A model generated the notes under the pieces. That model saw only the letters and a program-made list of their open reading frames with translations. It did no database searches and was not told where the DNA came from. Below are positions 24,751 through 29,068 of a stretch of 35,050 nucleotides of DNA, piece by piece; the first letter of the stretch is position 1, and every line of letters begins with the position of its first letter. Source of the stretch: Candidatus Dormiibacterota bacterium (GTDB lineage Bacteria > Chloroflexota > Dormibacteria > Aeolococcales > Aeolococcaceae); contig PKYW01000011.1 in assembly GCA_003132805.1 (NCBI GenBank), forward strand, positions 1,662 through 36,711, read 5' to 3'. The position numbers and the translations under genes were made by a program.

Positions 24751-25701
24751 GTGCTGAGCGAGCGTCAATCAACGTCGGCCGCGGTCAACGGGATGACCGC
24801 GCCGGAAGACCGCTGCGGTTTCGGCCTGGCGTTCGAGCGTCCGACCATCGATTGCCCTGCCTTCCAGCGGAGCCAGTTCATCGCCGCAACGTCCTATGGA
24901 AAGCCGCTTGGCACGCACGTCGCATGCGCCCATCTCGCGGTCGGCGAGTTGAGCACGAATCAGTTCTATCCCCGCTGCTCACTCGGCGCCGCGCCCGACA
25001 GGATGCGCTGGCTCGGCATGATGGGACCGGCGCGCCTGGAGGTGCAGCGGGCACTCGGCGCAGAGTTCGAGCGCCAGCACCCGGATGCGCTGAGGAAGCT
25101 GATCGCAGCCAAGGCAGCCGCACTCGCGTCGCCGGACAGCCGATCCAGCCGCCTGGCGCTCGCCGCGGTGGTTCGCGAGTTCGTCGACGAGTTCGGGGCG
25201 TTCGTGAGCACGCATGCGACTCGAATCCAGGAGCTCGGGTTTTCAGCAAGCGATCTCACCGACCGTGCCGCAGTCGTGCTCGCCGAGTGGCAGCGCAGCT
25301 CGCGTCTGGACCTCCCGCGCGGCGACGGACAGCCGCCCCGGCGACCCGATGCGCTGGAACCCCTGACCGATGGTGCTCAGGTGTCTGGCGCGGTCACCAT
25401 CTCGCGCTCCGCAAACCCGGCGTCGTTGACCCTCGTCGGAAGCATCGACCAGACCAACCTCAGCGCTATCGATGCGGCGCTGACGGATGCGATGGCCGCC
25501 GGAGAGGTGGTCAGGATCGACCTCTCCGACGTGACCTTCTGTTCCGTTGCCGGCCTGCGCCTGCTCGTCCGCGCCGCCAAGAGCGGAACGGTCACATTGG
25601 ACGGCATGCAGCCGCAGTTGCAGCGCGCGCTGGCAGCAGCAGGGCTGACGGGCGCCGGCGCGGTTGCGTCGTCAATCACCGATCTCGAGGTGGCAAGTTG
25701 A
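24751..25701 (+). CDS. Cys-containing sensor domain fused to STAS (anti-sigma antagonist-like)
   Basis: A 316-residue protein. The C-terminal domain (about 212-312) is STAS, as in SpoIIAA/RsbV antagonists: LTLVGSIDQTNLSAIDAAL, then VRIDLSDVTFCSVAGLRLLVRAA. The usual DS[ST]G phosphoserine motif reads CSVAG, so normal RsbW-type phosphorylation looks impossible. The N-terminal part (about 20-200) is a domain I do not recognise, with C22, C35, C59, H61 and C76 in conserved-looking contexts (IDCPAF, HVACAHLA, YPRCSLG) and a helical second half; metal or redox sensing is a guess. Its stop overlaps the TTG of the RsbA-like gene, so the two are probably made together and may bind each other. Confidence 0.75.
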   Translation: MLSERQSTSAAVNGMTAPEDRCGFGLAFERPTIDCPAFQRSQFIAATSYGKPLGTHVACAHLAVGELSTNQFYPRCSLGAAPDRMRWLGMMGPARLEVQRALGAEFERQHPDALRKLIAAKAAALASPDSRSSRLALAAVVREFVDEFGAFVSTHATRIQELGFSASDLTDRAAVVLAEWQRSSRLDLPRGDGQPPRRPDALEPLTDGAQVSGAVTISRSANPASLTLVGSIDQTNLSAIDAALTDAMAAGEVVRIDLSDVTFCSVAGLRLLVRAAKSGTVTLDGMQPQLQRALAAAGLTGAGAVASSITDLEVAS

Positions 25702-26675
25702 CGAGCGGTCGCCCAGTCCCGGACTTCAGGCATGAAGCGATGCTGTACGAGGGGCAGGGACAGTTCCTCGAACGCGTCGCTGCCTTTGTCATCGATGGGC
25801 TCACCGCCGGGGAGGCGGCGCTGGTCATGGTGAGTGCCGAGAAGATCGACGCACTCCGTGACCGCATCGGCGCTACTGGCGATGGACTCGTCGAATATCG
25901 CGATATGGGCGTGGTCGGCGCCAACCCGGCACGGATCATTCCCGCATGGGATGAGTTCGCGCTTGCCCAGGAGCGACGGGGAGCCGTTCGCATCCGCGGT
26001 GTGGGCGAGCCGATCTGGCCGGGACGCGTGGCAGCGCAATTGGAAGAGTGCCACTGGCACGAGGCGTTGATCAACACGGCCTTTGCGCACGTGCGGGGCT
26101 TCTGGCTCGTCTGCCCCTATGACGTGGCAGCCCTTGACCCGGATGTCGTTCTCGAGGCCCGATATACCCATCCCCTGGTCAGTGACGGCGCAGCGCCCGA
26201 ATCGCTTCGGGTGAACGCGCTGGCCGCGGAATTTGTCGCACCCACCACGCCGCTGTCCTCATCGCTGCCGCAGCCCGACAGCGCCGCCGTCATCGAGATT
26301 GCCTTCGACGCCGGTACCGTGGGGGAGGTGCGAGCGCTGGTGGCGGCCGAAGGTGCAGGCGCAGGGCTACTGCGCTCCCGGCTCGAGGACCTGATCCTCG
26401 CGGTGAGTGAGGTTGCGACCAACAGCATCGATCATGGCGGGGGCGGCGGTGTCGCGCGCATCTGGATCGACGACGGCGACGTGGTCTGCGAGGTTGCCGA
26501 TCGCGGAGTGATCAATGATCCACTTGTCGATCGGCGGCAGCCGGGCGACGACCTGTCAGGCCCGCGCGGGCTCTGGACGGTGAACCAGCTGTGCGACCTC
26601 GTTCAGGTGCGCTCGTCGCGGGAGAGCGGATCAGTGGTGCGCCTGCGCGTGCATGCGGGTCGCCGTCTGGCATGA
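25698..26675 (+). CDS. RsbA-like MEDS sensor / anti-sigma ATPase
   Basis: A 325-residue protein. The N-terminal half (about 10-165: FRHEAMLYEGQGQFLERVAAFVIDGLTAGEAALVMVS ... WPGRVAAQLEECHWHEALINTAF) is a MEDS (DcmR-type) sensory domain. The C-terminal part (about 195-322) is a GHKL ATPase of the RsbW type: LEDLILAVSEVATNSIDHGGGGG (N box), VCEVADRGVINDP (G1) and GPRGLWTVNQLCDLVQV (G2). This architecture is known as the RsbA-type anti-sigma regulator. The start is TTG at 25698, overlapping the STAS stop; the long in-frame extension upstream lies under the STAS gene and is rejected. It probably binds the STAS protein and a sigma factor encoded elsewhere. Confidence 0.88.
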   Translation: MTSGRPVPDFRHEAMLYEGQGQFLERVAAFVIDGLTAGEAALVMVSAEKIDALRDRIGATGDGLVEYRDMGVVGANPARIIPAWDEFALAQERRGAVRIRGVGEPIWPGRVAAQLEECHWHEALINTAFAHVRGFWLVCPYDVAALDPDVVLEARYTHPLVSDGAAPESLRVNALAAEFVAPTTPLSSSLPQPDSAAVIEIAFDAGTVGEVRALVAAEGAGAGLLRSRLEDLILAVSEVATNSIDHGGGGGVARIWIDDGDVVCEVADRGVINDPLVDRRQPGDDLSGPRGLWTVNQLCDLVQVRSSRESGSVVRLRVHAGRRLA

Positions 26676-26739: not shown

Positions 26740-27048
26740 ATGCTGAATCTCGACAAACCCCTCTACACGATTGGCATCACCGCGGAAATCCTTGCCACGC
26801 ATACGCGGACGCTCATGATGTATGAGCACCTGGGACTTGTTGTGCCGAGTCGCACGGCCACCAACCGGCGGCTCTACTCACAGCGCGAGATCATCACGCT
26901 CGGTGCGATCCAGCGCTTGACTCGGGGCTACGGCCTCAACCTCATCAGCGCGCGTTCGCTGATCCTCTGTCTGCAGTTGCTCGACGCCCACGGCATCCCG
27001 CGTCCCGCGGAGCTCGTCGACATCGACATCGAGCACGTCAAGATCTGA
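26740..27048 (+). CDS. HspR-like MerR-family regulator (copy 1)
   Basis: A 102-residue protein made almost only of a MerR winged-helix domain: LYTIGITAEILATHTRTLMMYEHLGLVVPSRTATNRRLYSQREIITLGAIQRL, then a short helical tail without a long coiled coil or ligand domain. The motif order resembles HspR. The paralogue at 30868-31176 is roughly 70% identical, and similarity begins exactly at this ATG, so I prefer it to the in-frame ATGs at 26698 and 26653; none has a clear ribosome site. It follows the RsbA-like gene on the same strand. Its 3' end lies 3 bases from the convergent zinc-ribbon gene. It is a candidate binder of the island's palindromes (inference). Confidence 0.82.
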   Translation: MLNLDKPLYTIGITAEILATHTRTLMMYEHLGLVVPSRTATNRRLYSQREIITLGAIQRLTRGYGLNLISARSLILCLQLLDAHGIPRPAELVDIDIEHVKI

Positions 27049-27404: not shown

Positions 27405-28154
27405 CTACTGCTCGATCTGATCGGACCGGTCGCGAAAGCGTGCCACCGCCTCGGAGATCGTCTCTTCGAGGTATCGATAGAAGAGCTGACGCTGGGAGAT
27501 GTCGATCGCAGCCTCCACATCCTGACCGTCACGGCGCCGGGCGATCCACGGCGGAACCCCGCCGGCGACCGCCTCGCATCCCACTCGCACGTGGACGAGC
27601 GAGTCGTCGTCCTCGGCGACATGGAGCGTCACGTTGAGGACTGGGCCGGTGTGTTCGACGAGGCGCCAGCTCCGCTCCCACCGGGCATTGCGATGAAAGT
27701 CGTGCGCGCGCCTCGCGACGTTGTCGGAGATCACGCTCTCTCCAGGCCGAGCAGCACGCGCGAGCAGTGTCCGGATGTCCCGGTCGATGTCGCGGCCAAT
27801 CCAATCGACGAGCGACGGCGCACGATCGTCGACGTCCGGATGTCCGCTCGGATCGCGTGAGAGCTCACCGATCGCCTGCACTGTTCCGGCGTGGCGGCGG
27901 CAGTAGGTGTTCCCTCCGAGCGAGATGGCGTGAGCAGGGCAGATCGTCACCGCGCAGGAGCGTTCCCGGCGGTCGCGATACGCGCAGAGCTGCGCGGTCT
28001 GATTGGCGCAGCCGCGCATCGTGCACGCGATACCGGTCGCGACCGGAGCGGGAGGCGCGGCGTGCTCCCTGCGGCGAAACAACGCGGTTGCGGGAAGGGC
28101 GCCAAGCCGCCGGAGCGCGCTCGCATCCTTCTGCGGGGTCTCGACAGTCACCAC
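27405..28154 (-). CDS. Cys/His-rich zinc-finger protein of unknown function
   Basis: A 249-residue protein I do not recognise. Residues 44-88 hold an ordered set of ligands: C44, C49, C57, C67, C72, H75, C85, H88 (C-x4-C-x7-C-x9-C-x4-C-x2-H-x9-C-x2-H), resembling a double-zinc B-box-like finger. A central part (about 105-150) is helical and charged; the last part (about 160-235) looks like an alpha/beta domain (GPVLNVTLHVAEDDDSLVHVRVGCEAV). No signal peptide or membrane helix is present. The start is GTG at 28154 with GGAGG about 10 bases before it. It has the same orientation as zinc-ribbon 1 but is separated from it by site B. Confidence 0.65.
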   Translation of the reverse strand: MVTVETPQKDASALRRLGALPATALFRRREHAAPPAPVATGIACTMRGCANQTAQLCAYRDRRERSCAVTICPAHAISLGGNTYCRRHAGTVQAIGELSRDPSGHPDVDDRAPSLVDWIGRDIDRDIRTLLARAARPGESVISDNVARRAHDFHRNARWERSWRLVEHTGPVLNVTLHVAEDDDSLVHVRVGCEAVAGGVPPWIARRRDGQDVEAAIDISQRQLFYRYLEETISEAVARFRDRSDQIEQ

Positions 28155-28310: not shown

Positions 28311-28688
28311 TTATGCGGAGTCGGTGACGGTACCCGCCGAAAGCTGATCCGTCCGTGTCTTCCAGAACGCCAGGCGGCGCTCGAAGCGCGCTGCTTCGGC
28401 CTTCAGGACCTTGAGATCCGTGTCCTTCACCTCCGACTCCGCCTCACCATCCATCGAGGTCACGCCACGCTCTGCAACGTCGAGCAGCTTGCGTTTGAAG
28501 TCGAGCAGCTCCGCGTAGACCTTGGACCAGTGCAACGCGTCGTCCACATATGCGGTGTCCTCGTTCTCACCGTCGAGCAGACGCTCCGGTTCGACGGCGT
28601 CGAGCGCCGCGTTCTGCGCCTCGACGTGATCAGGGGCCGGCTTCGCGCCCCTCTCCGCCCCTGCATCCTTGTTCATGGTGTCGCTCAT
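28311..28688 (-). CDS. Small acidic coiled-coil protein, last gene of the HK2 operon
   Basis: A 125-residue, highly charged protein, mostly helical; about residues 45-110 (WSKVYAELLDFKRKLLDVAERG ... DTDLKVLKAEAARFERRLAFWKTR) should form a helical hairpin or coiled coil. I recognise no family. Its ATG (28686-28688) overlaps the RR2 stop, with AAGGTGG just upstream. Translational coupling to a receiver-only regulator suggests a binding partner or output of RR2 (inference). Confidence 0.7.
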   Translation of the reverse strand: MSDTMNKDAGAERGAKPAPDHVEAQNAALDAVEPERLLDGENEDTAYVDDALHWSKVYAELLDFKRKLLDVAERGVTSMDGEAESEVKDTDLKVLKAEAARFERRLAFWKTRTDQLSAGTVTDSA

Positions 28689-29068
28689 GAGACCCACCTT
28701 CGGGTGGCCTCAGCGAGAACGGCGGGCGGTGTGTGCGCTTTGATGAGGTAATGGTGGGCACCGAGCTCGCGGCCGCGTTCCATCAGCTCGGGTTCGCTGT
28801 AGTTCGTGAGGATGACGACCGGGATGCGGGCCGTGGCCGGCGCGGCGCGGAGTTGTCGCAGGACATCGAACCCGTGCATCTCGGGCAGCCCGAGGTCGAG
28901 ATAGATGAGATCCGGCGAGTCGGCCCCGGCACGGGCGATGGCCTCGGCACCGGAGTGCGCCGTGATGACGTGGAAGCCGTGGGCCGTCAGCTGCATCTCG
29001 TACATCGTGGCCACATCGACATCGTCGTCGACGAGCAGCAGCAGAATTCCCATTGACCCATCATTCAT
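28685..29068 (-). CDS. Receiver-only response regulator (RR2)
   Basis: A 127-residue CheY-like protein with the acidic cluster D14-D15-D16 (LLLVDDD), phospho-acceptor D58 (IYLDLGLPEMHG), switch threonine (VVILTNYSEPEL) and lysine (YLIKAH). There is no output domain. The ATG at 29068 has GGGAG 6-7 bases upstream and overlaps the HK2 stop by 8 bases; an ATG at 29053 is an alternative. It is more divergent from RR1 and RR3 than they are from each other. HK2, upstream in the same operon, is its likely kinase. Confidence 0.92.
   Translation of the reverse strand: MNDGSMGILLLLVDDDVDVATMYEMQLTAHGFHVITAHSGAEAIARAGADSPDLIYLDLGLPEMHGFDVLRQLRAAPATARIPVVILTNYSEPELMERGRELGAHHYLIKAHTPPAVLAEATRRWVS

Follow-up and report, generated by a model that had tools for sequence, protein, structure and literature searches.

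The RsbV-RsbW and SpoIIAA-SpoIIAB systems combine a STAS antagonist with a Bergerat-fold ATPase, and the locus described here resembles them in this respect. It differs from them in lacking the acceptor serine, in carrying extra input domains on both proteins, and in having no adjacent sigma factor gene. The RsbA-family (NF041045) pairs of Streptomyces and its relatives (genomes G145, G254, G297, G350 and G452) have the same ATPase family, an adjacent STAS protein and no acceptor serine. The STAS protein of NF041045 pairs elsewhere is either plain or fused to MEDS, whereas here it bears a four-cysteine domain, C4(H), instead. Mycobacterial RsfA, an anti-anti-sigma factor, is inactivated by a disulphide (PMC7693655); it relies on two cysteines of its own, whereas the four cysteines of the present protein form part of a distinct domain, and control by redox is only putative. 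In the LOV-STAS protein YtvA and the oxygen-sensing stressosome, too, an N-terminal sensor feeds a C-terminal STAS domain (PMC10949197, PMC4976288). The STAS domain studied here differs in having an RsbA-type ATPase as its direct partner and a sensor from an unnamed family. Given that sensor-STAS fusions and RsfA are already known, the switch itself is not new in principle, and the initial annotation went too far in proposing a redox-driven STAS switch as a new form of the RsbV/RsbW mechanism, since mycobacterial RsfA is a precedent for redox control (PMC7693655).

The signalling protein that joins the four-cysteine module to a STAS domain comes from an uncultured soil bacterium. The window, by which we mean the whole stretch of DNA that was analysed (35,050 nucleotides), contains the following features at this locus:

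24751-25701, plus strand: STAS protein with N-terminal C4(H) domain, 316 amino acids, GTG start
24799-25020, plus strand: C4(H) core module, residues 17-90, with C22, C35, C59, H61 and C76
25021-25350, plus strand: helical extension, residues 91-200, from the alignment; helices in a low-confidence model; missing in the mini forms
25384-25668, plus strand: STAS domain, residues 212-306 (profile boundaries), Pfam STAS_2 at 3.4e-13
25537-25554, plus strand: FCSVAG motif, residues 263-268, with V266 at the acceptor-serine position
25698-26675, plus strand: RsbA-family MEDS+HATPase protein, 325 amino acids, TTG start
about 25728-26174 and about 26307-26648, plus strand: MEDS and HATPase_c_2, respectively, both in the RsbA-family protein
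26740-27048, plus strand: HspR-like MerR regulator, downstream of the pair and syntenic in the genus

Both genes, for a STAS protein and for a partner ATPase with its own MEDS domain, lie where the initial annotation had them. The genes overlap by 4 bp (24751-25701 and 25698-26675), and the GTG start of the first is conserved across six genus genomes. The Pfam match to STAS_2 in the 316-residue protein spans residues 226-299 (3.4e-13). The 325-residue protein matches MEDS (8.1e-29) and HATPase_c_2 (3.8e-14), is a member of the NCBIfam 'RsbA family' NF041045 (4e-93, 312 bits against a cut-off of 210 bits), and retains the N-box residues E238 and N242. The only cysteines of the STAS protein are residues 22, 35, 59, 76 and 264, of which the last is the sole cysteine within the STAS domain; the first four, with the histidine H61, occupy exactly the positions given earlier. 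No sigma factor gene adjoins the pair. The product of the downstream gene matches MerR_1 (1e-10) and HspR (5.5e-18, under the HspR cut-off). G003 and G006 have a further HspR-like MerR gene a few genes off (L074:12611-12955 and L076:13088-13432), with about 70% identity to the one at 26740-27048. On the minus strand, positions 27405-28154 encode a 249-residue protein with a Cys/His-rich N-terminus and no Pfam match; it is found in synteny in those genus relatives that were compared, at 82-93% identity. Also on the minus strand near the pair, positions 28311-28697 encode a 128-residue protein whose relative in another family (L172:3214-3786; 33% identity, 4e-16) lies beside a gene for a receiver+C4(H) protein.

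Searches of Pfam, NCBIfam and PDB sequences with the N-terminal domain, either singly or as an alignment, gave no match; a PDB profile search with the domain gave weak matches only, the best of them (E 0.11) over the helical part. The core of about 75 residues is nevertheless a real unit, as the initial annotation had supposed, with cysteines and histidine conserved in 61 non-redundant homologues. Cysteine conservation had been set beforehand as the test on which that proposal should fall, and all four cysteines are near-invariant: Cys22 is kept in 59 of 60 homologues, Cys35 and Cys59 in 61 of 61 each, and Cys76 in 60 of 60. Asp20 (58/59), Tyr73 (60/60) and Gly79 (60/60) are kept as well, so that the near-invariant positions are D20, C22, F28, C35, C59, Y73, C76 and G79. 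His61 is not strictly conserved; 55 of the 61 homologues have it, and the remainder have mostly Asn. When 14 of the 61 were aligned separately, identity fell to 22-23%. Judged from these alignments, the conservation of C4(H) is far beyond chance, and the family is absent from the libraries searched and previously undescribed. Two known kinds of iron-sulphur site were considered and rejected. Rieske-type [2Fe-2S] proteins have the motif CxH ... CxxH, which we compared with the CxH-x14-C of the module, but the position of the second histidine is Gly79 in 60 of 60 homologues. The WhiB-like Fe-S motif is C-x2-C-x5-C, and the spacing of the module, C-x12-C-x23-C-x16-C, does not match it.

Relatives of the domain occur in 34 of 110 genomes of the source class. 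In a sample across the phylum, 17 of 400 genomes contain the domain, and all 17 belong to the source class. A relative in the 'Candidatus Dormiibacterota' MAG palsa_859 is 83% identical. A scan of genome contigs matched only the close sister record, a tblastn search of plasmids with two domain queries gave no convincing match, and the domain was not found in viral contigs.

Disulphides among the cysteines, free of metal, might control the STAS domain as in mycobacterial RsfA. The RsfA precedent (PMC7693655), the even number of near-invariant cysteines and the conservation of C264 among STAS domains attached to a C4(H) domain are in keeping with such a thiol switch, which we consider improbable, as four strictly kept cysteines with D, H, Y and G residues nearby suggest a site rather than a simple pair.

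We looked for the N-terminal domain in other architectures, as had been proposed, and found it alone or combined with a LuxR HTH, a receiver, a weakly scoring PAS region, STAS, or STAS and ATPase together. Automatic sorting of the 61 members gave 28 with the cysteine core alone, mostly in reading frames of about 100 residues, and 21 in a form of about 210 residues that includes the helical part; in 8 the domain is C-terminal to a LuxR/GerE HTH (several confirmed by Pfam), and 4 are STAS fusions. A receiver-like region precedes the core in three genomes, two of them with Pfam confirmation, and one member is C-terminal to a PAS region with a weak score (PAS_9 2.8e-4, under the cut-off). G426 encodes the domain, STAS and HATPase in a single frame of 473 residues that ends at the contig edge. 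As far as our searches reach, C4(H) is a signalling module reused within one class, and probably represents a sensor or docking domain of a new kind. The genomic neighbours of the stand-alone and LuxR forms vary by subfamily and indicate no single process; some genus-20 genomes have a mini cysteine protein beside a thiolase gene, while others there have the STAS fusion. Genes for LuxR+C4(H) fusions also have in their vicinity, in opposite orientation, a gene that on visual inspection resembles an ECF-type sigma factor (L086, L092, L096, L099, L102, L110 and L185).

These architectures speak to a second alternative, in which C4(H) is a structural docking domain of the zinc type and not a sensor, the true input being a ligand of MEDS on the ATPase. 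Four strictly kept cysteines would suit a structural site, and the stand-alone mini forms adjoin varied genes; its recurrent fusion to receivers and signalling outputs, however, is more typical of input modules. We regard a docking role as a serious contender, if on the unlikely side.

The FCSVAG motif was aligned to the YMDSTG of RsbV and to other solved STAS antagonists; the STAS domain has detectable similarity to solved RsbV (6m36) and RsfB. The acceptor of a DSSG-type motif is its first serine (alignment to RsbV, counted to S56), and V266 falls in this column. The nearby serine, at which phosphorylation was to have refuted the initial annotation, is S265 and aligns with the aspartate of the RsbV motif. 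The protein thus has the STAS domain of an RsbV/SpoIIAA-type phosphorylatable antagonist and Val266 in place of Ser/Thr at the acceptor, so its motif is indeed non-canonical and phosphorylation at the canonical site is impossible. The nine STAS domains linked to C4(H) read FCSVAG, FCSVAA, FCDLGG, YCDLGG or FCDLAG; their acceptor column is V or L in 9 of 9, and never Ser or Thr. STAS domains without the cysteine domain that are adjacent or fused to RsbA read FWDVSG, FSDVSG, FCDVSG, FVDVSG, FIDASG or FCDISG in the source class, and FVDVAG, LMDVAG or HLDVAA in relatives of Streptomyces, two of which carry a MEDS-type region on the STAS protein (one confirmed by Pfam). On two Streptomyces plasmids, STAS proteins encoded away from RsbA have FMDSSG. 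In this small sample, all RsbA-linked or ATPase-fused STAS domains that we examined lack the acceptor serine (among them the paired or fused loci L222, L224, L225, L231-L236, L245 and L246). Since RsbA-linked STAS domains without the cysteine domain lack it too, loss of the acceptor travels with the RsbA-type partner and not with the cysteines, and the suggestion that a cysteine switch had taken the place of phosphorylation is not upheld. Among STAS proteins that are partners of RsbA-type ATPases or joined to them in one chain, a branch independent of phosphorylation may be widespread.

The coupling of STAS to an RsbA-like ATPase, as first annotated, is borne out in other genomes. G050, from another family, has a full RsbA gene downstream of a Cys-STAS gene, with an identical 4-bp overlap. 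G437 and G449 encode STAS-HATPase fusions without the cysteine domain. The recurrence of the overlapping pair in two families, together with these fusions and the one-chain fusion in G426, is good evidence for joint action of STAS and ATPase. A tree of the ATPases was mostly unresolved.

Searches with PF13466 and PF01740 found no second STAS protein in G000 (81.6% complete), and in the seven genus genomes the gene for the 316-residue protein accounts for the only matches above cut-off. A SigB/F/G-type sigma factor is matched in 7 of 7 genus genomes, above cut-off in 6. In G000 and G001 the sigma gene is preceded by an RsbW-like gene with no adjacent rsbV; the two genes overlap in G000 (L140:4470-5923, contig C101), and G001 has the same layout. 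The sole match to the SpoIIE profile in G000 is a generic PP2C, which we rejected as an RsbU-like phosphatase. The absence of a second STAS protein and of a phosphatase fits a switch that works without a phosphorylation cycle, bearing in mind that the genomes are incomplete. Control by phosphorylation might persist at another Ser or Thr of the STAS domain, given that E238 and N242 are present in the ATPase and that the DVSG of some RsbA-linked STAS domains has a serine one position later. That serine, however, is Ala or Gly in all STAS domains with a cysteine domain and in the Streptomyces pairs, and no RsbU-like phosphatase was seen in G000, which makes this explanation distinctly improbable.

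Among the genus genomes, only G000 and G001 have an undamaged ATPase gene. Deletions have removed it from G006 and, along with STAS, from G003; a deletion has taken part of it in G002; and in G004 it is damaged and STAS has a frameshift. Four of six genus relatives have thus lost or damaged the ATPase partner while retaining the cysteine module; G005 has no match to the STAS protein. The reading frame of the N-terminal core is open in all six genus genomes that have it. Between G000 and G001, the core has a dN/dS (NG86) of about 0.09, against 0.15 in RsbA and 0.32 in STAS; between G003 and G004 the core gives 0.17, from few changes. The core seems to be useful to some degree without the STAS output. 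The distinct deletions in G002, G003 and G006, the double damage in G004 and the failure to find STAS in G003 or G005 could mean that the pair is vestigial in the genus and that the cysteine module alone keeps a role. We consider such decay very improbable, as all parts are intact and under purifying selection in G000 and G001, and assembly errors could lie behind single breaks and explain some of the losses.

In our best reading, the locus encodes a phosphorylation-independent partner switch with a swappable sensor and a new C4(H) input module. More specifically, it would be a two-gene switch of the RsbA type, with an unphosphorylatable STAS antagonist, an undescribed C4(H)+helical input and an anti-sigma-like MEDS+HATPase partner, a proposal to which we give slightly less than an even chance. 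STAS would bind the ATPase as RsbV and SpoIIAA bind theirs, and so free a sigma factor or another client. With a hydrophobic residue at the acceptor position, binding would be set by C4(H) and MEDS sensing and not by a kinase/phosphatase cycle: C4(H) on STAS and MEDS on the ATPase would gate the affinity between the two proteins directly. The four cysteines most likely hold a metal or an Fe-S cluster, whose state we infer to alter STAS; the sigma factor as client and the direction of gating are likewise inferred. The near-invariant cysteines, the reuse of the module, the overlap or fusion of STAS and RsbA genes, and V or L at the acceptor argue for a partner switch. So do the lack of another clear STAS protein in the seven genus genomes and of an RsbU-like phosphatase in G000, and the presence in G000 and G001 of a sigma gene and an RsbW-like gene without rsbV. 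The sensor looks swappable because STAS proteins from Streptomyces relatives carry a MEDS-type region in the place of the C4(H) domain. The case is weakened by the lack of a sigma gene beside the pair, the loss or damage of the ATPase in four of six relatives, the non-strict His61, and the loss of the acceptor independently of the cysteine domain. It is also weakened by the model of the cysteine region: structure prediction from a two-sequence alignment gave a mean pLDDT of 45 and about 25 in this region, a value at which the model cannot tell whether the cysteines meet.

A more far-reaching version is possible, though the balance is against it: C4(H) would be a new family of metal- or Fe-S-binding sensors that arose in one class and became part of HTH regulators, response regulators and partner switches, and on an unphosphorylatable STAS protein it would control a sigma factor directly, without kinase or phosphatase. 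For the wider family, RsbA-linked STAS proteins, including those of Streptomyces, seem to operate as switches in the absence of the canonical phosphorylation site. The unnamed four-cysteine domain of about 75 residues has at least 61 distinct members and makes a good candidate for a new metal or redox sensor; as it also exists as a small stand-alone protein, it should be easy to study.
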